In this document: positions 3,171 through 46,222 of the stretch, piece after piece
Position numbering within the stretch: the stretch's first letter is position 1
Layout of the letters: each line of letters starts with the position of its first letter
Assembly: GCA_016931255.1 (NCBI GenBank)
Contig: JAFGFG010000009.1
Span: 259,076-323,075 of the forward strand
Length of the DNA stretch: 64,000 nucleotides
Source: Candidatus Aenigmatarchaeota archaeon
GTDB lineage: Archaea; Aenigmatarchaeota; Aenigmatarchaeia; QMZP01; JAFGSV01
Reading direction: 5' to 3'
The notes under the pieces: generated by a model
The model's input: only the letters and a program-made list of their open reading frames with translations
The model's database searches: none
Told to the model about the DNA's origin: nothing
Made by a program: the position numbers and the translations under genes

Positions 3171-3557
3171 ATGAGACATGACATAATTGCGGATACGTTC
3201 TCGATACTGAAGAACGCGGAGTCCATAGGCAAGACGGAATGCACTACGCCAGCGTCGAACCTTGTCAAGAACATACTCCTGATAATGCAGAAGGAGAAGT
3301 ATATAGGCGAGTTCGAGGCTGTTGAAGACGGACGCGGCGGAAAGTTCAAGATAAAGCTCATCGGAAAGATAAACAGCTGCGGCGCCATCAAGCCAAGGTT
3401 CTCAGTAAGCAAGGCGGATTTCATATCCTGGGAGAAGAGATTCCTTCCGGCAGCTGCGCTTGGACTGCTTCTGGTAAGTACATCCAGCGGTGTCATATCG
3501 CACAAGGAAGCAAAGGAGAAAGGCGTAGGCGGGAAGCTTCTCGGTTATGTCTATTAG
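3171..3557 (+). CDS. rps8: 30S ribosomal protein uS8
   Basis: MRHDIIADTFSILKNAE...LLLVSTSSGVISHKEAKEKGVGGKLLGYVY. Confidence 0.92.
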   Translation: MRHDIIADTFSILKNAESIGKTECTTPASNLVKNILLIMQKEKYIGEFEAVEDGRGGKFKIKLIGKINSCGAIKPRFSVSKADFISWEKRFLPAAALGLLLVSTSSGVISHKEAKEKGVGGKLLGYVY

Positions 3558-3566
3558 GTGATTTTT

Positions 3567-3830
3567 ATGAGTTCAGAACAGACTGTGAAGGACGCTTTGA
3601 AGGCAGGAAAGACTGTGATAGGAAAGGAAAGCGTCATAAAGGCTGTCAAAAACGGCAGGCTGTCGGGTATTGTGTGCCCATCGAACTGCCCGGCTGTGCT
3701 CATGAAGGAACTGGAATATTACAGCAGGATTTCCAAAGTGCATGTCAGCAGATTCAAGGGGAATTCCGCAGACCTGGGGCAGCTTTGCGGCAAGCCTTTT
3801 AAAATCATGATATTAGGAATAGAGAAGTAG
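3567..3830 (+). CDS. rpl30e: 50S ribosomal protein eL30
   Basis: VKDALKAGKTVIGKESVIKAVKNGR...; upstream of NusA/uS12 as in archaeal str-type operons. Confidence 0.88.
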   Translation: MSSEQTVKDALKAGKTVIGKESVIKAVKNGRLSGIVCPSNCPAVLMKELEYYSRISKVHVSRFKGNSADLGQLCGKPFKIMILGIEK

Positions 3831-3839
3831 ATGTTGACT

Positions 3840-4244
3840 ATGGCGATAAAACTCGAGACGCAGAACATAAGGGACATTGCGGTTTTCGAGCGGGTGACAA
3901 AAGTCCATGTAAAGGACTGCATCCGTGACGAGAGCGGCGTGTACTTCATGGTTGAAAAGGGGAAATCCGGACTCGCGATAGGAAGGAACGGAGCTGTAAT
4001 AAAATCAGTGAGCAAGATGCTCGGGAAGACCGTGAAGGTATTCGAGTTTTCCCAGAACATTGAAGAGATGGTGAAAAGCATGATACCGGCCGCAAAAAAC
4101 GTGGATGTAGCGAATGACGCTGTGACAGTGACACTGCCGAGCAGCGAAAGGTCAGTTGTTATAGGAAGGAGCGGAAGGAACATCAAGATTATGAAGGAAT
4201 TTTTAAACAGGCACTTCAAAATAAATTACCTGAGGCTGAGATAA
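3840..4244 (+). CDS. nusA: Archaeal NusA-like KH-domain protein
   Basis: KH-type GxxG motifs ([36 protein letters not shown]), directly before uS12. Confidence 0.87.
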
Positions 4245-4666
4245 TGGGAGAATTTGCAGCAAGAAACCTGGTCAAGAAGAGGAAGAAGCTTAGGTGGGCC
4301 TCCAAGGCAGGAAAGAAAAAGCTTCTGAAGATATGGAAGAAGGACCCGCTTGAGGGAGCACCAATAGGCCGTGGCATCGTCCTCAAGAAGAAGGGTGTCG
4401 AACAGAAGCAGCCGCACTCCGGAATAATCAAATGCGTAAGGGTGCAGCTCATAAAGAACAGCATCCAGGTGACAGCATTCGTGCCTGGAACCAATGCTAT
4501 CAGGTTCATAGACGAGCACGACGAGGTGACGCTTGCCGGCATAGGAGGCTCGCAGAAATCTGCAGTCGGTTCCATGCACGGCATAAAATACAAGGTGATA
4601 GAAGTCAACGGAGCCTCGCTCAATGAACTGCTTAAAGGAAAGAAGGACAAGCCAAAGACAGCTTAA
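4244..4666 (+). CDS. rps12: 30S ribosomal protein uS12
   Basis: [32 protein letters not shown]. Confidence 0.93.
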
Positions 4667-4675
4667 GGTGATGAT

Positions 4676-5263
4676 ATGCTATTATTCGATAAGTGGGACA
4701 TAAGTGAAGCAAAGGTTGAAGACCCCGGTCTTGTGAAGTATATAAACCTCAGGCCGATTATTGTTCCCAGGACATTCGGAAGGAAGAGCGGAGATTTCCG
4801 CAAGAATGAAATGAACATAATAGAGAGGTTCATGAACAAGCTTCAGGTTACAGGACATTCCAACAAGAGGCACAAGGTAAGCTCCGGAAAGTTCCCTGGC
4901 AACTACCAGACAATAATGAAGGAGACAATGAAGGCTTTCGATCTAATAGAGAAAAAGACAAACACCAATCCCATCCATGTCTTTGTAAAAGCTCTTGAGA
5001 ATGCAGCCCTTTTCGAGGAGATAACTGCTTACCAGCTTGGGGGAATAATAGCAAGGAAGGCTGTGATAACATCCCCGCAGAGAAGGGTGGACCTTGCGCT
5101 CAGGCTCATAACCCAGGGCATATACAGGTCAACTTTCAAGTCCAAGAAGACACTCGGCCAGACAATCGCCAGCGAGATAATGGCCATTGCGGACAATGAT
5201 CCGAAGACGCTTCCGATAAGGGAGAGGAACAGGATAGAGAAGGAAGCGGAGGGAGCAAGGTAG
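4676..5263 (+). CDS. rps7: 30S ribosomal protein uS7
   Basis: YQLGGIIARKAVITSPQRRVDLALRLITQG; between uS12 and EF-2. Confidence 0.92.
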   Translation: MLLFDKWDISEAKVEDPGLVKYINLRPIIVPRTFGRKSGDFRKNEMNIIERFMNKLQVTGHSNKRHKVSSGKFPGNYQTIMKETMKAFDLIEKKTNTNPIHVFVKALENAALFEEITAYQLGGIIARKAVITSPQRRVDLALRLITQGIYRSTFKSKKTLGQTIASEIMAIADNDPKTLPIRERNRIEKEAEGAR

Positions 5264-5307
5264 ATTTGAATACCAGCTTTTTTTAACTATATGATTAAGT
5301 GATTCCC

Positions 5308-7512
5308 ATGGCAAAAAGCGATTTGACTTCAACTGTAAAAGAACTTCAGAGCAAACCGGAGCAGATAAGAAACATCGGAATAATCGCGCACATAGACCAT
5401 GGAAAGACAACGCTTTCCGACAACCTTCTTGCAGGCGCGGGTATGATATCAGAGGATCTTGCGGGAAAGCAGCTCTTCATGGACACCGTGGACCAGGAGC
5501 AGGAAAGGGGAATAACAATCTTCGCAGCTAATGTAAGCATGGTTCACACCGTAAAGGGCACTGATTATCTCATCAATCTCATAGACACCCCGGGTCACGT
5601 GGACTTCGGCGGTGATGTCACCCGTGCCATGCGTGCAGTTGACGGCGCTGTTGTTGTCGCTGACGCTGTAGAGGGTTGCATGCCCCAGACCGAGACAGTC
5701 CTCAGGCAGGCTCTTAAGGAAAGGGTCAGGCCCGTCCTTTTCATCAACAAGGTAGACAGGATGATCAAGGAGCTCAAGCTCACCCCACAGCAGATGGAAG
5801 AGAGATTCAAGAAAATAATCACTGAGGTGAACATGCTTATCCAGAAATACGCGGAGAAGGAATACGCCGACAAGTACACTGTCAATGTGCTGGACGGCAG
5901 CGTCGCTTTCGGCTCTGCTCTCAGGAACTGGGCGATTTCAGTGCCGAAGATGAAGGAGACGAATATGTCGTTCAAGGACATAATAGACATGACAAACGCT
6001 GGAGAGGAAAAGGAGCTCGCAAAGAAGGCTCCTCTTCATGCAGTTGTACTGGAGATGGCAATCAAGCATCTTCCCAATCCGCTTCAGGCCCAGAAATACA
6101 GGATAGAGAAAATATGGCCCAATGACGATAATAAAAGCCCTGTGGGCGAGTCAATGAAGAACTGCGACCCGAACGGGCATCTTGCGGCTGTTGTCACAAA
6201 GGTCTACCCGGACCCGCACGCAGGTTATGTTGCCACAGTCAGGATTTTCTCTGGAAAAATAAGGGGCGGCCAGGAGCTGCAGCTTGTCGGTTCGCAGAAG
6301 AAGGAAAAGGTCCAGCAGGTTTCTGTTTACAAGGGCGCGCAGAGGGTTACCATGGATGAAGTTGTTGCAGGCAACATCGTAGGCATTGTAGGTCTCAAGA
6401 GCGCATACTCCGGAGAGACCCTTGCGGAAAGCGGATACTCAATCAACGCTTTCGAGGGGATAAAGCATATATTCGAACCGGTTGTAACCAAGGCTATCGA
6501 GCCGAAGCAGCCCAAGCAGCTCGCAAAGCTTATAGAATTCCTCAGAAGGACAAGCAGGGAGGACCCGACACTCGTAGTCCACATAAACGAGGAAACCGGC
6601 GAGTATCTTGTTTCCGGACTCGGAGAGCTTCACATAGACGCCAAGATAGAGAGGCCTCTTCATGATGCAGAAATAGAAGTCAATGTCTCACCGCCTATAG
6701 TCATCTACAAGGAATCAGTCAAGCAGGCATGCGGCGAGGCTTTCGAGGGCAAGTCGCCGAACAGGCACAACCGATTCTACATGACAGCAGAACCAGTACC
6801 TGATGCAGTCATGAAGGCGATGGCTGCAGGAGACATCTCTTCAGATTACGAAGTAAAGAAAAAGGACCTGGACCTTGTCGAGAAGCTTGTAGGACTGGGA
6901 ATGGAAAGGGACGAGGTCAAGAAAATCAAGCTCATACACAACAGGAACATATTCCTTGACGCCACACGGGGTGTCAATTCCATACTTGAGGTAATGGAGA
7001 TGCTCAAGCAGTCATTCGTTGATTCCATGGATCAGGGACCGCTTGCAAGGGAGCCTGTCAGTGGTGTTATGATAAAGATTGTCGATGCAAAGCTTCATGA
7101 GGATGCAATCCACAGAGGGCCTGCACAGGTCATACCGGCTGTCAGGTCTGCTGTCAGGCAGGCTATGGTAGCGGGAAAGGCATTCATACTGGAGCCGAAG
7201 CAGATCATCAGGATAGACGTTCCGAGCGAGCAGCTCAGCGGTGCAATGAAAGAAATCCAGAACAGAAGGGGCCAGATAGTCGAGATGAACGAGGAGAGGG
7301 GAGCCACTGTCATAAAGGCAAAGCTTCCTGTCGCTGATATGTTCGGCTTCAATTCATCGCTGAAATCAGGTACAGGCGGCCAGGGATTCTTCTGGCTCAT
7401 AGACGTTACGTACGAACCTCTTCCAAAGGAGCTTGAGAATGAAGTGATAGGGAAAATCAAGCAGAGGAAGGGACTGGCGGACGAGCCTGAGGAAACAGAA
7501 GAAGACGCCTGA
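5308..7512 (+). CDS. fusA: Elongation factor 2 (aEF-2)
   Basis: IAHIDHGKTTLSDNLL, DTPGHVDFGGDVTRAMRAVDG, NKVDR; full length. Confidence 0.97.
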   Translation: MAKSDLTSTVKELQSKPEQIRNIGIIAHIDHGKTTLSDNLLAGAGMISEDLAGKQLFMDTVDQEQERGITIFAANVSMVHTVKGTDYLINLIDTPGHVDFGGDVTRAMRAVDGAVVVADAVEGCMPQTETVLRQALKERVRPVLFINKVDRMIKELKLTPQQMEERFKKIITEVNMLIQKYAEKEYADKYTVNVLDGSVAFGSALRNWAISVPKMKETNMSFKDIIDMTNAGEEKELAKKAPLHAVVLEMAIKHLPNPLQAQKYRIEKIWPNDDNKSPVGESMKNCDPNGHLAAVVTKVYPDPHAGYVATVRIFSGKIRGGQELQLVGSQKKEKVQQVSVYKGAQRVTMDEVVAGNIVGIVGLKSAYSGETLAESGYSINAFEGIKHIFEPVVTKAIEPKQPKQLAKLIEFLRRTSREDPTLVVHINEETGEYLVSGLGELHIDAKIERPLHDAEIEVNVSPPIVIYKESVKQACGEAFEGKSPNRHNRFYMTAEPVPDAVMKAMAAGDISSDYEVKKKDLDLVEKLVGLGMERDEVKKIKLIHNRNIFLDATRGVNSILEVMEMLKQSFVDSMDQGPLAREPVSGVMIKIVDAKLHEDAIHRGPAQVIPAVRSAVRQAMVAGKAFILEPKQIIRIDVPSEQLSGAMKEIQNRRGQIVEMNEERGATVIKAKLPVADMFGFNSSLKSGTGGQGFFWLIDVTYEPLPKELENEVIGKIKQRKGLADEPEETEEDA

Positions 7513-7582
7513 CAACTTCTGGGACAGAGTTTTTAATCTCTCAGTCTCAAAATTAATTACTTTTACAGTTACGTGAGTTTCC

Positions 7583-8800
7583 ATGAACAAAGAAACAATA
7601 GCCCAGAAGAAGCTTAGGGTGCTTCTGAAAAAGCTGGGCGCCATACGGGGAAGGCATACAGAGCTTGTCACCATCTACGTACCCGCGGGACTGAATCTCT
7701 ACATTATATCAAATCAGGTAAGCCAGGAGCAGGGAACCGCGGTGAATATCAAATCAAAGGCTGTGAGAAAGAATGTCCTTACAGCACTTGAGAAAATAAA
7801 TCAGCACCTTAAACTATACAAGAGAGCCCCTGAGAACGGGCTTGCAATTTTCTCCGGCAACATTTCAGAAAAGGAAGGGGAGAGCGACGTGGAGCTCTGG
7901 GCAATAGAGCCTCCTGAAAAGCTCAACCAGAGGCTTTACAGGTGCGACCAGACATTCATACTCGACCCCCTGACATACATGCTCCGCGAGAGGGAGGTAT
8001 ACGGTCTCATTGTGCTGGACAAGTCTGATGCGAATATAGGAACACTTGTTGGAAAAAGGATTGAGCCGCTCAAGAATATAGAGTCGCTTGTTCCCGGCAA
8101 GACCAAGAAGGGAGGATGGTCTCAGGCACGTTATGCCCGTGTAAGGGAAGGGCTTCTGAATGACCACCTCAAAAAAGCCGGCGAGATAGCGACATCATAC
8201 TTCAGGGAAATGGAAGACCTGAGAGGGATAATAATAGGAGGACCCGGGCCGATAAAGGAAATGTTCTTCAACGGTGACTTCCTTCCGACAGACATAAAGG
8301 CGAAGGTTCTCGGTGTTGTTGACACCTCATACACAGGGATGCCGGGACTTGAGGAAATGATTGTCAGGGGGGAGGACATACTCGCGGAGGCCTCCATCAC
8401 CCATGAAAGGAAGATTATGGACAAATTCTTAACGGAATTGTCAAAGGACTCGGGGCTCGCGGTTTACGGCATAAAAGAGACACTTCACGCCTTAGAGGCA
8501 GGTGCTGTCGGCATTCTTCTGGTTTCCGACAGGTTTGAATGGGTTGACGCCGAATTCGAATGCCCTTCATGCGGGAAAAAGACTGGAAAAATTGTAAAAC
8601 CGGACAAGAAGGATGCTGTCATGTGCCCGGGATGCGGTTCTTCAATGGAACTGACCAAAGAAAACGATGTACTGGAGAAGCTGGACTCCCTTGCAGAGAA
8701 CGTCGGCTCGAAGATGGAGATAATATCCGCTGACAGCCGTGAGGGAGAGCAGCTTTTTGAAATGGGCGGGCTTGCAGGAATACTCAGGTACAATATATGA
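7583..8800 (+). CDS. prf1: Peptide chain release factor aRF1 with GGQ replaced by GGW
   Basis: NIKS (GTAVNIKSKAVRKNVL), YxCxxxF (YRCDQTF), Zn-ribbon-like CPSCG...CPGCG; catalytic loop reads KTKKGGWSQARYARVREG. Confidence 0.93.
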   Translation: MNKETIAQKKLRVLLKKLGAIRGRHTELVTIYVPAGLNLYIISNQVSQEQGTAVNIKSKAVRKNVLTALEKINQHLKLYKRAPENGLAIFSGNISEKEGESDVELWAIEPPEKLNQRLYRCDQTFILDPLTYMLREREVYGLIVLDKSDANIGTLVGKRIEPLKNIESLVPGKTKKGGWSQARYARVREGLLNDHLKKAGEIATSYFREMEDLRGIIIGGPGPIKEMFFNGDFLPTDIKAKVLGVVDTSYTGMPGLEEMIVRGEDILAEASITHERKIMDKFLTELSKDSGLAVYGIKETLHALEAGAVGILLVSDRFEWVDAEFECPSCGKKTGKIVKPDKKDAVMCPGCGSSMELTKENDVLEKLDSLAENVGSKMEIISADSREGEQLFEMGGLAGILRYNI

Positions 8801-8809
8801 CCGCAGGAA

Positions 8810-9343
8810 TCATATTACCTCGTCTTCCCACCTGTATATGCTGTCCCTGTTTTTCCAGACAATGAATGTCACTGCCAGGCCGACAGCAAATCCTCCAATA
8901 ACATCCACTATTGTATGGACACCGAGCGCTACTCTGGAAATGCCTACGAGAGCCGGGAATATGTAAATCGGAAGATATCTCTTTCTGCTTCTCATTAAAA
9001 GAAATATTGATGTTGCCACGCCTGTCATTGTTGACATGTGACCCGAAGGGAAAGAGAAACTTTCCAGGCAGAAGGGATTGCAGTCAGGAGCCGGGCACGG
9101 CAGGCACGGCCTCGGAACCTGGAATATGAGCTTTAGCGCCTCTGCCCCGAACAATGAAATAAAAAGTGTCGGTATTATCAGGAGCAGGAAATTCTTGAGC
9201 ATCTTCCTGTGCTTTTCCGATCTGCTGAACTTTATGTATTTCCTGTCAAGGAGGTAATGCACCGCTACCAGAATTATCACAATGGATGACCAGAGTACAG
9301 GGTCGCCGGTGTATGTCACTGCTCCCCAGAACAAATCATTCAT
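8810..9343 (-). CDS. PAP2-superfamily membrane phosphatase
   Basis: KLIFQVPRP...FSFPSGHMSTMTG...SRVALGVHTIVDVIGG motifs. Confidence 0.9.
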   Translation of the reverse strand: MNDLFWGAVTYTGDPVLWSSIVIILVAVHYLLDRKYIKFSRSEKHRKMLKNFLLLIIPTLFISLFGAEALKLIFQVPRPCLPCPAPDCNPFCLESFSFPSGHMSTMTGVATSIFLLMRSRKRYLPIYIFPALVGISRVALGVHTIVDVIGGFAVGLAVTFIVWKNRDSIYRWEDEVI

Positions 9344-9367
9344 TATTCTATTTGTTTCCCTTGGCTT

Positions 9368-9958
9368 TTATTTCTTAGAATCAGGTTCCGGCTTGACTTT
9401 CACGCCTATCTCGCCAAGGTTTTTCTGCAGCTTCTTCAGCGCCTTGTGTATGTCTTCTTCTTTCTGGGCGCCTGCGCATATGACACGTCCGGATGTGAAC
9501 AGCAGGAATGCCACGCGCGGCTCGTTTATCCTGTAGACAAGCCCCGGGAACTGTTCAGGCTCGTATTCGCTGTTTTCAAGCGTCAGTGCTATCTCGTCAA
9601 GGCTGAGTTCGGTGTCAAGCTTTGTGGAAGCCACTATGTTCTCCACCTTTGTTGTGTATTTCGTGGATATTTTTATTCCCGCTTTCCTCATGTTGGCAAC
9701 TATCTTTTTCATGGCCTTATCAAGGTCTTCCAGCGACTTTGTTCCTGTGCATACGACCTTCCCCTGCGAGAATATGAGCGCAGAAGCCCTTGGGTCTGTT
9801 ATCTTGTAAACAAGTCCGGGGAACTGCTCAGGCTGCCATTCAGTATTGTCAACCTTCTGGAGCATCTCGTCAAGGGATATCGTTCCTTCGAGGACAGTGT
9901 AAGCTACGATATTCTGCACCTTTATCTTAAAACCGGAAGAAGTCATTTCCGCACTCAT
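9368..9958 (-). CDS. tbp: TATA-box binding protein
   Basis: Two imperfect repeats (VQNIVAYTVLEG.../VENIVASTKLD..., EQFPGLVYKITDPRASALIFSQGKVVCTG / EQFPGLVYRINEPRVAFLLFTSGRVICAG). Confidence 0.97.
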   Translation of the reverse strand: MSAEMTSSGFKIKVQNIVAYTVLEGTISLDEMLQKVDNTEWQPEQFPGLVYKITDPRASALIFSQGKVVCTGTKSLEDLDKAMKKIVANMRKAGIKISTKYTTKVENIVASTKLDTELSLDEIALTLENSEYEPEQFPGLVYRINEPRVAFLLFTSGRVICAGAQKEEDIHKALKKLQKNLGEIGVKVKPEPDSKK

Positions 9959-9995
9959 GCATATACATATCCCAAAACAAACTTAAATGTATCGT

Positions 9996-11714
9996 TTATT
10001 CCTCAAGTTCTTTAAGCAGCTCAAGCTCGTCTCCCCTCAGCCTGTGCCTGAGCTTCCTGAGAATATCCAGTTCATGATTCATCAGCTTGATGTCGATCTC
10101 ATCGCCTTCATCTATGTTTTTGCCGACAATACCACCGTCTATTGAGACAGCCAGCCTGTCGCCTGCTTTTCCTTCGCTGACGTTTTCCCCTTCAGCCTGG
10201 AGTTCCTTCACATCTCCTATGTCCTTTCCGTCCTTCACGAGCCTGCTGTTGGACCTTATTATACCCTTGATGACCTCAACCCCGACTATCGCAGGCTTGC
10301 ACTGCCGGAACACGTATCCGGGCATTATCCTTATCCTTCCGGGCCTGCTTATTCCGGAAAGGAGGCTGTCTTCCTTTCTTTTTGTTGTGTCCTTCATCCA
10401 TTTCTCATAGTCCTCAAGAAGCCTGTAGATGATATCTGAAGAGAATATTTTGACGTTGTTGTCGCCTGCTATTGTGTCTATCTCCTGGCTGACCTTGACG
10501 TTGAAAGCGAATATTATGGGATTCGGAAGGCTTTTAATCTCCATGACATCCTGCTTGCTGACATCGCCGATATCCGCCTTCCTTATGGGAACGTCAATCT
10601 CTTTCAGCGTCTTGATAAGTGCCTCAAGCGAGCCGAGCGTGTCAGCCCTAAGCAGCACGCCCGCGTTGTCGGTGTCTATCTCGACTTCGGAAACCTCTTC
10701 CTCTATATCCTTCTTGACAGCTTCAATTCTTGATTCATCGCTTACTGCCCTCAGCGGTGAGCCTGCGGTAACCTTCTCAAGTTCCGGTGCAGCTATCTTT
10801 ATTCCTGATGCAGCTGTCACTGTCTTCACAGGCCTGAATGCCTTCTCGACCCTTATCTCTTTCATTGGGTTGGGCTTCAGGAGTGCCCTGACCTTGGTAA
10901 CAAGCATGTCCCTGACACCTATCACAAGCCAGTCGCCTGTGTTTATCTCCCCGTCATAAAGTATGACATCTATTGTTGTGCCCAGTCCCTTGTAGTCCTT
11001 GACCTCGAGAACAGTGCCCTTTCCCTCTCCTGGTGTCACATGAAGCCTCTTCTCAAGGAATCTCTGCGAAAGTCCTGTGAGCATCATGAGCAGGTCCGGT
11101 ATCCCTTCCCCTGTTATCCCGCTTACGGGAATTATGGATATTTTCTTCCTGAAGTCAGTGACCCTGTCATATCTGTCGACCTCAAAGCCATGCCCGGAGA
11201 GCTGGCCCACTATCGCATAGAACTTCTTCTCGAATTCGTCTTTTACCCTTTTTGACTGCTTGTTCCATGTTGAGAGAAAACTGTCACCTTCGTTTGGAAA
11301 CCATCCCGTGAGCCTGTCGATCTTCGTGAGCGCTATCACGAATGGCGTCTTGAATTCCTTAAGGAAACGTATGGATTCATCAGTCTGAGGCTGCAGCCCC
11401 TCGTTTATGTCGACGATAAGGACGCCTATGTCAGCCACAGCGCCGCCTCTTTTCCGCAGGGTTGTAAATGCAGCGTGTCCCGGTGTGTCTATGAACAGCA
11501 GTCCGGGTATCTTTACATCGACATTCATCTTTTTCAGAAGCGGACCTGACATCTTCTTGATGTAATCTATTGGCACCTCGCTTGCGCCTATGTGCTGCGT
11601 AATGCGGCCTGCCTCGCCTTTTGCCACTATGCTTCCCCGAATGTAATCAAGAAGAGTTGTCTTTCCGTGATCCACATGACCCAGTATCGATACTATAGGC
11701 TGCCTCAGCGCCAT
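9996..11714 (-). CDS. infB: Translation initiation factor aIF5B
   Basis: MALRQPIVSILGHVDHGKTTLLDYIRGS...GRITQHIGAS...FIDTPGHAAFTTLRKRGG. Confidence 0.96.
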   Translation of the reverse strand: MALRQPIVSILGHVDHGKTTLLDYIRGSIVAKGEAGRITQHIGASEVPIDYIKKMSGPLLKKMNVDVKIPGLLFIDTPGHAAFTTLRKRGGAVADIGVLIVDINEGLQPQTDESIRFLKEFKTPFVIALTKIDRLTGWFPNEGDSFLSTWNKQSKRVKDEFEKKFYAIVGQLSGHGFEVDRYDRVTDFRKKISIIPVSGITGEGIPDLLMMLTGLSQRFLEKRLHVTPGEGKGTVLEVKDYKGLGTTIDVILYDGEINTGDWLVIGVRDMLVTKVRALLKPNPMKEIRVEKAFRPVKTVTAASGIKIAAPELEKVTAGSPLRAVSDESRIEAVKKDIEEEVSEVEIDTDNAGVLLRADTLGSLEALIKTLKEIDVPIRKADIGDVSKQDVMEIKSLPNPIIFAFNVKVSQEIDTIAGDNNVKIFSSDIIYRLLEDYEKWMKDTTKRKEDSLLSGISRPGRIRIMPGYVFRQCKPAIVGVEVIKGIIRSNSRLVKDGKDIGDVKELQAEGENVSEGKAGDRLAVSIDGGIVGKNIDEGDEIDIKLMNHELDILRKLRHRLRGDELELLKELEE

Positions 11715-39669: not shown

Positions 39670-39823
39670 TGCCCCCGCCGGGATTCGAACCCGAGTCATC
39701 GGCTGTCTTCTTCGGACATCCAGTTCATTTCCTATTTCATTGCCGGGAAAAGCCTTTCCCGACTCAAACCTTCCGAACCGAATCGAAAGGCCGGTATCCT
39801 TGGCCGGACTAGACGACAGGGGC
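39670..39823 (-). tRNA. tRNA-Glu(UUC) with 79-nt intron (39705..39783) at canonical 37/38 position
   Basis: Acceptor GCCCCTG/CGGGGGC + A; T-arm TCGGG-TTCGAAT-CCCGG; BHB CCGGC-CTTT-CGA-TTCGG / CCGAA-GAAG-ACA-GCCGA; spliced loop CTTTCGA. Confidence 0.93.
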
Positions 39824-39867: not shown

Positions 39868-41073
39868 TCAGGATACGACGCACGGGGTCGCTGTAAGCAG
39901 TTCCGTTAGATTGAGAGCGTCGCTGTCTGCTGAGTCTATTCCAAACCACTCAGGCATGTTATTGACCTGGTAGCAGTCTCCCTCGCCTGCGAAATACCTG
40001 TATGCGACCCTTGAATAATCAAAGACAGGGAATGCCTGCTCCTCAAGTTCTGGCGTGTATATGAATGTAAACATCCCGTCAGGCGATGTGTCATTGCCTC
40101 CCTCCAGCCTCTGGAGGAAATTCGGACCCGCGCCACGGTAATAATAGCGCTCGGCTATGTTGGTCTCTAATGGAATCGACCATGCTGTCTGCGTGGAATC
40201 ATCTATGTAAATCTCAGTGGCGCCTGATGCTATTGCTGCCTGCACAAGCGCAACTGCGCTGCTGTTGCCTGTCACTGAGCACGCCACCTGCGATGTGAGG
40301 TTGTCATTATCAGCAAGTATTATGCCCAGATGCCGTGCGTAGACAACTCCGGTTATGTTCTCAGCCACCAGTATCTTCGTGTTGTCTACCTCTGACTTGT
40401 TGAATGTGACTTCTCCTGCGCACGAGCCGCCTGAGTAAGAGCCGCCTGTGACGACGTTCATGGCCACGTGGGACGGTTCAGGTGTTCTTATTATCCTTCT
40501 TATGAAACCCTGTGTGTTGAGAAGGAACATAGGGTCTTCAAGCCCGTTCACTGTTATGTCCACATACTTCCTTTCATTGAATTTCTCTATCTTTACCCTC
40601 TCGAGCTTGTCTGTCACGGATATGTTTATGTCCACACCAACCCTTATCGAGAACCCGTCGTTATTTTCCACGGATATGTTTCCGTATTGGAGCTCCAGAT
40701 CGAAGCTCGTGGACTTTGATGAAATCCTCTCGCTCCAGTCGGGTATGGTGTTGTCTATCATGAGGAAGGCCTCTGTGTTGTTTATGGTACCTGTCAGCAT
40801 GAGCGTCGTTAAGTTCGCGACTGCGTTCTTCAGGGGTTTGCCAGAATTCAGGACTTCATTTGTGGCTGCAAGCAGGGCCCTTCTTCCGGCTATCTGAATG
40901 GCCTTTTCCGTGTCCAGCTCTATTGAACTCACGAGCTGACTTATCTGGTCTGATATCACCCTGTCCGAAACCATGTCCCCCAGGCTGTCGGTGTATGAAA
41001 GGTAGTTGATGGTGAACATGAATATGGGAACTGCAACCAGTATTGCTATAAGCGAGTAGAACTGGCCTTTCAT
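39868..41073 (-). CDS. Membrane-anchored extracellular protein (pilin-like N-terminus)
   Basis: Single N-terminal TM (MKGQFYSLIAILVAVPIFMFTINYL); extracellular-type composition with NxS/T. Confidence 0.65.
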   Translation of the reverse strand: MKGQFYSLIAILVAVPIFMFTINYLSYTDSLGDMVSDRVISDQISQLVSSIELDTEKAIQIAGRRALLAATNEVLNSGKPLKNAVANLTTLMLTGTINNTEAFLMIDNTIPDWSERISSKSTSFDLELQYGNISVENNDGFSIRVGVDINISVTDKLERVKIEKFNERKYVDITVNGLEDPMFLLNTQGFIRRIIRTPEPSHVAMNVVTGGSYSGGSCAGEVTFNKSEVDNTKILVAENITGVVYARHLGIILADNDNLTSQVACSVTGNSSAVALVQAAIASGATEIYIDDSTQTAWSIPLETNIAERYYYRGAGPNFLQRLEGGNDTSPDGMFTFIYTPELEEQAFPVFDYSRVAYRYFAGEGDCYQVNNMPEWFGIDSADSDALNLTELLTATPCVVS

Positions 41074-41915
41074 GGATATATCACCTGTATGTACTCCACA
41101 AGCTCGCCTTCACACCATCTGACGGAAATACCGTTTATGGGGAACATGTCGAGGTCTATTGTGCATGTCATGTTCATGCCTATGACCTGCTCGGGTATCT
41201 CCGGAGGCAGGTTCACTGCATTCAGGAGCTTATGGAAAATGACGCACCGCGGCTGCAGCTTCTGTGTGGCTGTGTATTCAACCGGCCTCTCCTCGACATC
41301 TATGTAAAGCGTCCAGTATGTCAGTCCCCCTGTTGTATGGTCAAGCTCCTGATCCAGCGTTATCTCCGCGTTCATGCAGTTCTTTATGTATGTGGACGCT
41401 TCTTCCTTGCAGTCGTCCGCATCCAGAGAGCAGTATGCCTGGAAGACTGTCTCGCCGTCTGAAACTGTTGTCGATGTATCGCTCGAACCAGATGCGAGGA
41501 ATCCGGCAAGCGAGTTGTCGCATACAATCTGGCCTGTTTCCTCAAGCACTTCCTCATCGATTTCGCATTCTATCTCACGGCCTGTGAGGTTGTACGGCGC
41601 GAGCCCTGAGGAGTCGTCTATGATTTCCTCCTTTGTGATGCACTTGCCGTTCTCCATGTATGTCGTGACCTTTATGATTATGCGGCTCGTCTCATTGCCT
41701 ATGACAAGTATGGATTCAGTAGGGGGGTCGCAGTTCATTCTCATTTTACGCACCTCTTCCAGGCAGTCAGCATCACCTGGCAGGCATTCGGTCTTCACTG
41801 ACATCACTGATATGTATGCCTCATTGAGCGGCATCACGAATATATGGAATGCGATAGCAGCAGCTGCAATCGCCACCAGTACGGCCAATGCCTCCAACTT
41901 GTCCATCTTTACCAT
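41070..41915 (-). CDS. Membrane-anchored Cys-rich extracellular protein
   Basis: N-terminal TM (LEALAVLVAIAAAAIAFHIF), many Cys; 4-nt overlap with downstream gene. Confidence 0.65.
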   Translation of the reverse strand: MVKMDKLEALAVLVAIAAAAIAFHIFVMPLNEAYISVMSVKTECLPGDADCLEEVRKMRMNCDPPTESILVIGNETSRIIIKVTTYMENGKCITKEEIIDDSSGLAPYNLTGREIECEIDEEVLEETGQIVCDNSLAGFLASGSSDTSTTVSDGETVFQAYCSLDADDCKEEASTYIKNCMNAEITLDQELDHTTGGLTYWTLYIDVEERPVEYTATQKLQPRCVIFHKLLNAVNLPPEIPEQVIGMNMTCTIDLDMFPINGISVRWCEGELVEYIQVIYP

Positions 41916-41935: not shown

Positions 41936-44900
41936 TCAGGACCATACCCTTATCTCCATGACCGATGGCCCCCACAGCGAGGGAAGCTCTGAAACATACT
42001 GGTATGGAGTCTCCACCTCAAGCGCTGTTATGTCAAAGTCCGAGAGCTTCGCCTGCAGCCTGTCCACTGCATCGTCAGTCGCGTTCTCAAGCGTTGAATA
42101 CACCTCGCCGTAACCCACAAGCCCTTCAACAGAGACGTAGTATATGACCCTGTCGTACGGCGAGCCTCCCATGGGATATTCATCCGTGAGGGCGGTGTCT
42201 ATTGATACAGTATTGTTTTCGCCCATTACAAGCAGGTTTACAGGAATGTTCACATCGAACGGGTCTCCGATGTCTGTGTATTCCGAACCGTATCCGGATA
42301 TGTTGTATACGCTGACTTTCTGACCTCCGGTCGCGCTGGAGTTGACCGCCACGAAGCTCGTCCAGTATTCGGATGAATAGGATGTCGCATGAGCTCCGAG
42401 TATTCTTGAGCCTGAAGGTATGTAGAATGTCCCCTCTTTAGGCGACTCGACGCTTCCGCCGAACCGGCCGGAGTCCAGTGCAATTGACACCTCGCCGTAT
42501 CCGATGACATTGAACGGCGTGTAATTGAAGAGTATGTACGAATCAGGATAGATTATGTTCATGAGGGAGACATCCCCGGATATGTTCACTGTCTGCGCCT
42601 CGAAGCTGGCCTCTCCCATGTTCTGTGCTATGTTCTTGTATAACTCCATCAGGTCTTCCGCGTTGTTGCTCTTGAAAGACCTTGTGCAGTTGTCTTCCTC
42701 TTCACCTGGTATCCAGTCATCTGCGGAGCAGTTCCAGCAGGCTATCTTTTGCATGACTATCTCGTCAGCCCCTGTTCCGAATGCGACTGAATATACCTCT
42801 ATGCCGTTGTCGCGCGCATTGCAGGAGGCGTTTATGGCCCATTCCTCGTCTATCAGGTCGGCTGTTGTCGCTCCCTGCCCCGTGTAGTCGTGGAAGCTCT
42901 CACAGTACATTGTAGCCTCGCCGTCGCTCATCACGAGCATTGCGCTGTACCTCTCCATGGTGAAGTTGAGCATGACATTGTCGAATGCCACTAATGTTGT
43001 TCCCCCGCCGTCAGTAACCGAAGCGCCGCATCGGAGCGTGTACGTGAATGACGGGCTGTTTATGTAATCCGTTATGTTTATCTCGACCTTCTCGGGGCCG
43101 ACGGGATTGTCCGCGGATGACCATGAGTCAGACCATATCACGGCTTCGGTTGCGTTGCTGTCAGCCGGCTCCGGGTAGGTGAGATTGCAGAAGACGTTCG
43201 CTGTCCCGTCGAACGCTGAATCGGATGTGCTGTGGTAAAGCGTCACGAACCCGTCCAGAAGCGTGCCCGTTGGAATGGTGAAGTTCTGGTATATGCTTCC
43301 CGAGGCGCCATAGTCGCTGCTGACATACCAGTAGTCATAGAATCCGATGTCAATGTCGCCCATGGTCACTGTTGTCACGTATCCGTCATCACTGGAGTCA
43401 TCGACATACGCGACTGCATAGACATCACCGCTCACATTCGTTATCACAGGCGCGATGACAGACGATGCCCTGAACTCAAGCGTATCCACGGCTTCTGTTG
43501 TTATGTCACCGGATTGGTCTATCTCCACAACAGTAATGAACCCATTGTTTCCGTTTCCCCTGTAAGCGATTGCGTAATAGTCGCCGTACATCCACAGTAT
43601 CCTTGGTGTCTGGCAGTTGCTGCTGTCGAACTCGTAGCTGTCTATGTATGTCGATGCTATGTCACCGTTGCTCTCTATCTCGAATGTTTTCAGCCACCCG
43701 TCGTCATCGCTGTCCCTCCTGTAGGCCACAGCATAGACATTGCCTGATATGTGAGCTATCGAAGGCTCGGCTGCATCAGTTGTCTCGAATTCGAATGTGT
43801 CCTGCGTCGAGCCTATGTTGCCTGACGAGCCTATGTTGACTGTGGCTACAAAACCGTCGCTTGACGGCCCCCTGTACGCTATGGCGTATATGTCGCCTGA
43901 CACATGCATCATGTCAGGCATGTAGCAGTTGGAGTTGTCGAATTCAAGCGTGTCTATGTTTGCTCCTATTGTACCTGCGGAATTTATTGTGAAAGTGTAC
44001 ATATGACCGTCGTCATCGCTGTCCCTTCTGTAAGCGACTGCGTAAACATCCCCTGAAACATGGACTATGCTGGGGTTGTATATATCACCGTTGTAGAATT
44101 CATGGTCATCCTGCTCTGAACCTATGTTTCCTGAGGAGTCTATATCCACAGTCATTACATATCCATCGTTTCCAGGACCTCTATAAGCTATGGCGTATAT
44201 GTCACCTGAAATGTGTATGAAGTCGGCATTCTCACCACGGCTGTTGTCGTATTGATAAGTATCTATGACAGGACCTATGGTTCCGTCGCTTGCTATTGCC
44301 ACTGTTGATATCCATCCGGTGCTGTCTGATGTTGTCTCATACGCTACTGCGTACACGTCTCCTGATATGTGAATCATGTCCGGGTCAGCTATGTTAGCGG
44401 GACTTTCGAACGCATATGTGTCCTCTGTTGCTGAATCACCTGAAAGTGTCACTGTCCCGGTTTCGTTCCAGCTGTCAAGAGTCGGTCCTGTGAATTCGCT
44501 GTTGTCAAGCATGTTGAATGACCTTCCGTCGCTGAGAAGGTCAACGGCCTTGTTTATGCCGCAGCATATGCATGTTCCTCCACAGTCATCGCTGTATCCG
44601 CTTATCTGGCTGTTAAGATAGCCTGAGTCATATGTTATGTCGTCATAGCTGCACAGGTCGGAGCCGTATGCGCTCAGGCCGACGCGGCTTCCCTGATAGC
44701 TTATCACGGTGTCTACGAACTCGGAGTCAGCTTCCTTTGCGACGTTTATTCTCTCACGCTTTCCGTATGTTCCGCCGCACTGGGTGCATGTGGTTTCGTC
44801 ATCGCAGCAGTTCGAAGTCTCGCTGCTGCACACATAAACAGATGGTGTCGTCTCTGTCCAGATTCCATTGCATATGCTCTCGCATGTGCTCTGGCTGTCA

Positions 44901-46222
44901 TCGCATGTCGCGCTGCATCTGTCGTAACAGTCAAATGGGACACAGTCGTAGCTTTCGTTGGACCAGACGTCGCATGTTCCCATGCTTCCGGATCTGTCTG
45001 TTATGAGAACGACATCGCTTGACCCGACACCTGTGAGTATGTTGAATGTCTCCATCCCAAGCCTAAGGGGAAGCGTGGAATTGCTTATCTCTGTGTAATT
45101 CAGGTATGTCTGCATGACTGCGTTGCTCATGTTCACTTCAACTTCCCCGCTGTCGTTGAGCCTGAAGAGTTCCGTGTTCCCTAATATAAGGTACACAGGG
45201 AGACCGGTTTCGTTAACAGTTATGTTGTTCCTGTATCTCAGGTGAAGCTCCATCGCATTGAGATTTCCCGGAATGGGGAAGCCTGAGAATACATTCACAA
45301 TACCTGTGACACCCGGGAATCTGTACCTGTCCTCGTATGTGTTGTTGGTTATGCTGTATACACCCAGGGTGTCAGGCTTGCTCGTGTTGTATGTGACCTT
45401 GAGATAACCGCCGCCGATGAAGTTGTTGTAGAAATTGGAGAAATTTATGGTTATTGCATTCGGCCCTTTGCTGAATATCGCGCTGCATCCGGCGAAGCTG
45501 CTGCAGATGGTCCAGTTGTTGGCAGTGAAATTCACATTATATGAATCGAAAGAGCCAACGTTGTTTCCGTTGACGAAGATGGTGAAATTGTTGCCTATGT
45601 TCGCCTCAAGGTAGGCATTGGTGACATTTGCATCTGTTGGGATTGTAAACAACTTAGTTATGTTTCCGTCTCCCTCGTATCCGCCGAAATACACATAGGT
45701 CGATGTGGATTTGCTCATTCTCGAAATGAATGCGCTGGCGAAGTACCCGGACACGGGCTTGCCAAGCTCATAACCGGACACTATTGTGTTAAGGCGTGAC
45801 ACAAAGCTTCCAGGCGAACCGTATGTGTAGAGGCTCTCATCGTCTATCAGGACTTCATACCCGAAGCTTCTTGGCAGCGTGCGGTTCACTATTTCCCTGG
45901 TCAGGTTTTCCGCGCATTCCGAAAGCTTTGTTGAGTTCTGTGCCCACAAATACCCGAGGACATCAAGGATTGTATTGTTCATGTCGTCGCTGGTTATGTT
46001 GCAGTCCGCTATGTAGGTTGGGGGGAGCATATCAGCCACAGCTGAGAATCTGGCTGTCTCGAAGACGTTCATCAAATCCTTCCCGCTGTAGTACAGCCTC
46101 TGATACTCGAGTTCCGGGGAATAGTATGTGAGCGACATCGTTGTGATAAAGGAGGCTATTATGAACAGCAGCCCTACGGCAACTATGGCGTCCATGGAAA
46201 GAAGGAATGCCTTTTTCATCAA
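41936..46222 (-). CDS. Giant surface protein: split vWA domain with Cys-rich and seven-repeat putative beta-propeller inserts
   Basis: TM (AFLLSMDAIVAVGLLFIIASF), MIDAS DRSGSMG, about seven repeats H(I/V)SGD(V/I)YA(V/I)AY...DGxxxTxxI, then vWA-like continuation YSAMLVMSDGEATMYCES. Confidence 0.85.
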   Translation of the reverse strand: MMKKAFLLSMDAIVAVGLLFIIASFITTMSLTYYSPELEYQRLYYSGKDLMNVFETARFSAVADMLPPTYIADCNITSDDMNNTILDVLGYLWAQNSTKLSECAENLTREIVNRTLPRSFGYEVLIDDESLYTYGSPGSFVSRLNTIVSGYELGKPVSGYFASAFISRMSKSTSTYVYFGGYEGDGNITKLFTIPTDANVTNAYLEANIGNNFTIFVNGNNVGSFDSYNVNFTANNWTICSSFAGCSAIFSKGPNAITINFSNFYNNFIGGGYLKVTYNTSKPDTLGVYSITNNTYEDRYRFPGVTGIVNVFSGFPIPGNLNAMELHLRYRNNITVNETGLPVYLILGNTELFRLNDSGEVEVNMSNAVMQTYLNYTEISNSTLPLRLGMETFNILTGVGSSDVVLITDRSGSMGTCDVWSNESYDCVPFDCYDRCSATCDDSQSTCESICNGIWTETTPSVYVCSSETSNCCDDETTCTQCGGTYGKRERINVAKEADSEFVDTVISYQGSRVGLSAYGSDLCSYDDITYDSGYLNSQISGYSDDCGGTCICCGINKAVDLLSDGRSFNMLDNSEFTGPTLDSWNETGTVTLSGDSATEDTYAFESPANIADPDMIHISGDVYAVAYETTSDSTGWISTVAIASDGTIGPVIDTYQYDNSRGENADFIHISGDIYAIAYRGPGNDGYVMTVDIDSSGNIGSEQDDHEFYNGDIYNPSIVHVSGDVYAVAYRRDSDDDGHMYTFTINSAGTIGANIDTLEFDNSNCYMPDMMHVSGDIYAIAYRGPSSDGFVATVNIGSSGNIGSTQDTFEFETTDAAEPSIAHISGNVYAVAYRRDSDDDGWLKTFEIESNGDIASTYIDSYEFDSSNCQTPRILWMYGDYYAIAYRGNGNNGFITVVEIDQSGDITTEAVDTLEFRASSVIAPVITNVSGDVYAVAYVDDSSDDGYVTTVTMGDIDIGFYDYWYVSSDYGASGSIYQNFTIPTGTLLDGFVTLYHSTSDSAFDGTANVFCNLTYPEPADSNATEAVIWSDSWSSADNPVGPEKVEINITDYINSPSFTYTLRCGASVTDGGGTTLVAFDNVMLNFTMERYSAMLVMSDGEATMYCESFHDYTGQGATTADLIDEEWAINASCNARDNGIEVYSVAFGTGADEIVMQKIACWNCSADDWIPGEEEDNCTRSFKSNNAEDLMELYKNIAQNMGEASFEAQTVNISGDVSLMNIIYPDSYILFNYTPFNVIGYGEVSIALDSGRFGGSVESPKEGTFYIPSGSRILGAHATSYSSEYWTSFVAVNSSATGGQKVSVYNISGYGSEYTDIGDPFDVNIPVNLLVMGENNTVSIDTALTDEYPMGGSPYDRVIYYVSVEGLVGYGEVYSTLENATDDAVDRLQAKLSDFDITALEVETPYQYVSELPSLWGPSVMEIRVWS
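43330..44440 (-). repeat. Seven intragenic repeats of about 51 aa (putative propeller blades)
   Basis: Blades alternate AVAYRRDSDDDG-type and AIAYRGPxxDG-type, suggesting dimer duplication. Confidence 0.8.

Follow-up and report, generated by a model that had tools for sequence, protein, structure and literature searches.

Pilin-like proteins with an interrupted von Willebrand factor A (vWA) domain are already known, the nearest published design to the protein considered here being CpaL, a minor pilin-like component of the Tad pilus in Caulobacter in which a vWA domain with its metal ion-dependent adhesion site (MIDAS) is formed from two chain segments around a beta-rich insert projecting off the MIDAS (PMC12607857). 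We have analysed a 64,000-nucleotide stretch (the window) from a Candidatus Aenigmatarchaeota archaeon (assembly GCA_016931255.1, contig JAFGFG010000009.1, positions 259,076 to 323,075), in which a 1428-codon open reading frame on the minus strand (window 41936-46222) encodes a protein with a seven-bladed beta-propeller inserted within one vWA fold. This protein resembles CpaL in its pilin-like N-terminus, its single interrupted vWA domain and an insert directed away from the MIDAS. The CpaL insert, however, lies between DxSxS (160-164) and T470 and comprises two small beta-barrels, whereas the insert described here lies between the MIDAS T and the MIDAS D, comprises a propeller and a sandwich, and varies among relatives.

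Other described proteins share parts of this design. PilB of Streptococcus sanguinis, a modular minor pilin with a vWA domain and MIDAS that functions in adhesion and has been modelled at the pilus tip, indicates that vWA minor pilins can serve as tip adhesins (PMC8179133, PDB 7B7P). PilB has a vWA domain and MIDAS like those of our protein, joined to a pilin module that may have a counterpart here, and is among the top Foldseek matches of the scaffold, but has a canonical class III signal, only short arms flanking the MIDAS and no propeller. RrgA, PitA and Mfa5 are likewise tip adhesins whose vWA domains bear inserted arms, and are profile or fold matches, but belong to bacterial sortase-built or type V pili and have other insertion sites and folds. 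In the PilY1/PilC1 family of type IV pilus tip proteins a single chain has both a vWA domain and a propeller, but there the two are consecutive, with a C-terminal propeller after and outside the vWA, whereas the AlphaFold2 (AF2) model of our protein has the propeller inside it. The converse arrangement, a vWA domain inserted into a propeller, is that of integrin alpha chains with an alphaI domain (PMC12422189), and the present case thus bears on the tolerance of vWA domains for large insertions.

A literature search, which was not exhaustive, found no description of a propeller inside a vWA domain, of one vWA loop as a recurrent insertion site in DPANN archaea, or of vWA proteins of Aenigmatarchaeota. 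Little is known about how DPANN archaea recognize partner cells and stay attached to them, and the family described below, with a scaffold conserved over many DPANN lineages and a single variable insertion site, provides a named, genome-encoded candidate.

A propeller within a single vWA domain

The sequence-only reading of this frame had proposed that the propeller interrupts the vWA fold, and three independent lines of evidence support this. Homologs were present in 58 of 100 related genomes searched, and two of them, from the same genus (G002, 872 aa) and the same family (G005, 857 aa), lack query residues ~566-1091, such that residues ~1-565 and ~1093/1128-1428 are nearly contiguous; the alignment at the empty site runs TCICCGI...ML, a few residues and then RRSIIVMSDGEA, where the query has a 520-residue insert. 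Pfam detects a VWA domain over a single stretch in the G002 protein (L052; 47 bits, cut-off 23.8), and because the two flanking halves join into one ordinary Pfam VWA in empty-site relatives, we conclude that there is a single vWA domain. In the query itself the only Pfam match is VWA_2 over residues 486-567, which falls under the cut-off (E 1.2e-4). Secondly, a profile made without the query still places the insert in one vWA loop. Thirdly, the AF2 model of residues 388-1212 (41 alignment rows; mean predicted local distance difference test score (pLDDT) 78, predicted template modelling score (pTM) 0.51) has beta1, alpha1, beta2, beta3, alpha2 and alpha3 ahead of the insert, which is followed by beta4, beta5 and beta6, each with a helix after it, so that the halves are complementary, although the placement of domains relative to one another is uncertain at this pTM. 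Assignment to the vWA superfamily further reflects the presence of all five MIDAS residues (D409, S411, S413, T550 and D1100) and an alternating alpha/beta fold in the model and Foldseek comparisons.

The listed start codon is TTG and an ATG follows immediately at 46219; either could be the start, and the protein is thus 1427-1428 aa long. Its parts, all on the minus strand, are as follows.

46127..46219, minus: N-terminal membrane helix with a prepilin-like signal (residues 2-32, KKA-FLLSMDAIVAVGLLF...), from the motif in homologs and helix 10-32 of the L052 model
45038..46126, minus: N-terminal scaffold domains, helical then beta-rich (residues 33-395), conserved in the DPANN family; pLDDT mostly 80-95 in the L052 model
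44528..45025, minus: first part of the vWA domain (residues 400-565), with beta1 and MIDAS DxSxS 409-413, alpha1, beta2, beta3, alpha2, T550 and alpha3, from Pfam, the AF2 model and MIDAS conservation
44795..44974, minus: Cys-rich loop after the MIDAS motif (residues 417-476), placed by vWA topology on the same side as the MIDAS, with family-conserved Cys
44423..44527, minus: linker opening the insert (residues 566-600, NMLDNSEFTGP...W), conserved in three propeller-bearing homologs; low pLDDT
43355..44422, minus: seven-bladed beta-propeller of seven 51-53-aa repeats (residues 601-956), from repeats, AF2 and Foldseek
42959..43354, minus: beta-sandwich, probably a jelly roll (residues 957-1088), from model strands at 965-1089, pLDDT about 62-77
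42590..42952, minus: second part of the vWA domain (residues 1091-1211), with beta4 and D1100, alpha5, beta5, alpha6, beta6 and alpha7, which directly adjoins the first part where relatives have an empty site, and placed in the model
41939..42589, minus: C-terminal scaffold domain (residues 1212-1428), from family conservation and the L052 model

The frame, its coordinates and all the elements that the sequence-only reading had picked out were borne out, among them the hydrophobic N-terminus that it took for a membrane helix, the DRSGSMG motif with D409, S411 and S413, the Cys-rich stretch at about residues 417-476 and, after the propeller, a further vWA-like half containing D1100. The Cys residues 417, 440 and 472, together with 551 and 554 of the TCICCG motif, are invariant or nearly so across the family.

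The expectation of about seven 51-aa repeats also held. The repeats begin near residues 620, 672, 723, 775, 826, 879 and 931 (spacings of 52, 51, 52, 51, 53 and 52), and their mean pairwise BLOSUM62 score of 95 is far above that of shuffled sequences (-16, standard deviation 10). AF2 predicts 27 strands over residues 611-953 and a two-residue strand ahead of repeat 1, giving 6 x 4 + 3 + 1, with pLDDT mostly 84-95; because the alignment of the insert held only two complete sequences and one partial sequence, this confidence derives largely from the query and its own repeats. The best full-length Foldseek match is the seven-bladed lectin PLL4 of Photorhabdus (8q82_A; target-normalized TM-score 0.76, root-mean-square deviation 4.5), one of the fucose-binding PLL lectins within the free-standing PLL/PHL group, to which the likeness is one of fold only at 13% identity; sialidases are also matched. 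Repeats, model and fold match thus agree on seven blades. No sequence relatives of the propeller were found in viral contigs, phages or the PDB, and weak Pfam matches of its repeats (DUF3471, DUF2141 and DUF6679) were judged to be due to chance or driven by the repeats.

Two further suggestions were upheld in part. A strand before repeat 1 had been proposed to close the propeller; the last repeat is indeed three-stranded and a short strand is predicted at this position, but the stretch has a pLDDT of only about 32-52. The possible jelly-roll section (residues 957-1088) is modelled as beta-rich at moderate confidence, and a Pfam scan of the section returned no matches; the modelled strands suggest a beta-sandwich, probably a jelly roll. 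The linker at 566-600 may be the first strand of a split jelly roll in which the propeller is nested. Splicing 566-600 to 957-1088 produced no Pfam match, and when profiles were compared with those of nested jelly rolls from relatives only the C-terminal part aligned.

One loop, many inserts across DPANN archaea

The sequence-only reading had advised looking for the same architecture in other archaea. A single scan of 85,462 species genomes identified a DPANN-wide family of 77 loci, labelled Aenigmatarchaeota, Nanohal(o)archaeota, Pacearchaeota, Woesearchaeota, Nanoarchaeota, Parvarchaeota, Micrarchaeota and Altiarchaeales. The MIDAS is conserved throughout (D409 in 77/79 homologs, S411 in 76/79, S413 in 70/79, T550 in 75/79 and D1100 in 70/78). 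When spacing was measured with a profile from empty-site members only, 47 of the 75 proteins spanning both the MIDAS T and the MIDAS D had 27-33 residues between them and the other 28 had 289-795, corresponding to inserts of 259-765 aa. The breakpoints fall mostly at profile positions 530-541, a ten-residue loop joining helix 3 to strand 4.

This loop resembles a socket into which different recognition heads can be fitted. Its contents include a galactose-binding-like sandwich with nested domains, laminin-G alone and the propeller, and the Pfam families detected within inserts are Laminin_G_3, DUF2341 and a sub-threshold sugar-binding Glyco_hydro_2_N. The galactose-binding-like sandwich is itself broken, at lineage-specific points, by jelly rolls or by DUF2341 with laminin-G; in L055, L039 and L070 the interrupting parts are a jelly roll, DUF2341 plus a sandwich, and a duplicated sandwich. 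In L118 an H-type lectin domain (H_lectin) immediately precedes the vWA. A second vWA loop has apparently received a propeller independently: two tandem genes on a Micrarchaeota-labelled contig (L111, 1816-6918 and 7052-10954) have inserts right after the MIDAS D that match PSII_BNR, the YCF48 propeller (53.5 bits in the longer and 33 bits in the shorter; cut-off 27). A Pacearchaeota copy (L116) has repeats just after the MIDAS D, for which there is no Pfam match.

In a tree from which the insert columns were left out (a quick tree, with branch support from the SH-like approximate likelihood ratio test only), the propeller-bearing query, L051 and L065 form one fully supported clade adjoining L052 and the same-family L053, whose sites are empty. 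By parsimony at least 12 changes in occupancy are required; counted per group, the starred branches force at least seven for the empty state. L065, whose contig ends inside the propeller, was scored as having no insert in this run, and relabelling it would raise the count by one change at most. The tree does not distinguish the gain of an insert from its loss. We suggest, tentatively, that one loop of a conserved pilin-like vWA protein may serve DPANN archaea as a general socket, with lectin-like sandwiches, laminin-G domains and propellers being exchanged and nested there, that the choice of host or surface partner evolves by exchange of heads and that propellers have entered at least twice independently.

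Among individual records, L079 has tandem overlapping members (3349-6978 and 6900-11561), in which inserts of different length, 381 and 655 aa, occupy one and the same site. An Elusimicrobia-labelled record has the same protein as a Pacearchaeota record (L122 and L123), and the contig was probably mis-binned. The copy in a further same-genus genome (G003; L050:6201-6773) is cut by a run of N, and its apparent truncation is an assembly gap rather than a real one.

Possible pilus context and function

The reading that we favour, and consider somewhat more probable than not, is that of a modular minor-pilin-like adhesin, akin to CpaL and PilB, in which the vWA domain is a platform for swapped recognition domains, with ligand binding and pilus assembly being predicted roles. 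The earlier suggestion of an adhesin or cell-contact protein is a reasonable prediction, to which the lectin-type inserts seen in relatives and the prepilin-like N-terminus add weight. In all 73 homologs compared, a G or A lies six residues before a conserved D/E, and it is preceded by K or R in 66; in the query this prepilin-like site is followed by a hydrophobic stretch. The model of L052 (pLDDT 82, pTM 0.57) has helices at 10-32 and 36-56, with further helical and beta regions after them, and Foldseek matches it to inter-alpha-inhibitor heavy chain 1, the minor pilin PilB, the pilus tip protein PitA, Mfa5 and isolated vWA domains, the PilB match stemming at least partly from the vWA. A sequence profile also matches Mfa5 and RrgA. 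Two genes lie downstream of the vWA gene.

41070..41915, minus: small membrane-anchored Cys-containing protein (281 aa) of the same operon, with homologs in 4/77 loci, mainly of close relatives
39868..41073, minus: second pilin-like membrane protein (401 aa, MKGQFYSL...), a conserved partner gene

The 401-aa pilin-like gene is found directly downstream, mostly in overlapping frames, in 57 of the 77 loci, and many of the others end too early to tell. In the genome itself there are four pilus-type ATPases scoring above the cut-off (PF00437), along with six membrane platform proteins (PF00482) and a prepilin peptidase (PF01478).

A type IV-like pilus machine would process the membrane-anchored prepilin-like protein, secrete it and display it, perhaps at the filament tip alongside the 401-aa partner. 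The loop from helix 3 to strand 4 would bear a recognition head of propeller and beta-sandwich, with the propeller touching a surface glycan or protein on the partner cell, while the MIDAS and its putative disulfide-rich cap most likely engage either a second ligand or a partner in the pilus. By vWA topology this loop is on the face opposite the MIDAS, which would give the protein one face with the MIDAS and its conserved Cys-rich cap and another with the exchangeable head. The head would most likely set target specificity and, because the same loop is empty or differently filled across DPANN archaea, specificity could change through domain swapping or nesting on a constant scaffold. The source archaeon may, to judge from its group, live on a partner cell; thin type IV pili help host binding in Saccharibacteria, which have a comparable episymbiotic lifestyle (PMC12206443).

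Several points weigh against this reading. The conserved acid is D at +6 instead of the usual E at +5 of a class III signal, so that the signal is not canonical, and the pilus machine genes are elsewhere in the genome, not beside the vWA gene. The likeness of the propeller to lectins is confined to its fold, and propellers bind many things. As the inserts face away from the MIDAS by topology, the two need not act together, and binding and expression are themselves predictions.

The first two of these points would fit an envelope or surface protein outside any pilus, in which the helix is a plain anchor for a large ectodomain and the head crosses the surface layer to reach nutrients, polysaccharide or neighbouring cells. 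We regard this as unlikely, if still a serious competitor, given the strict [KR][GA] placement ahead of the hydrophobic stretch in the family, the coupling to a pilin-like gene and the fold match to PilB and pilus tip proteins. It is less likely again that the MIDAS is the main ligand site and that the propeller and other inserts act mainly as spacers or stabilizers holding or lengthening the vWA domain: the near-invariance of the MIDAS residues and the 47 of 75 members without an insert are consistent with such a role, but the inserts are not conserved across lineages and are drawn repeatedly from binding-type folds (lectin-like, sugar-binding, propeller) and not from Ig-like spacers. Finally, the weak Pfam matches of the interrupted domain might be taken to mean that the propeller stands between two distinct vWA domains, or that the assembly or annotation is at fault, but both are extremely improbable, the former being ruled out by the empty-site relatives and complementary model halves and an assembly artefact by the same insert in the independent metagenome-assembled genome of L051 (62% identity), with part of it in a third.

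Two observations concern the surroundings of the operon. In L051 (11188-14760, minus strand), the gene for a 1191-aa surface protein, in which repeats resembling a pyrroloquinoline quinone (PQQ)-type propeller and a zinc-protease-like HEMGH motif were recognized by eye, lies between the homologs of the two downstream operon genes (281 and 401 aa). In the window, the operon is closely followed by a tRNA (39670-39823, minus strand; Rfam 36.8 bits) that ARAGORN does not report; with ~80 nt inserted in its anticodon loop, it is probably an intron-bearing gene.

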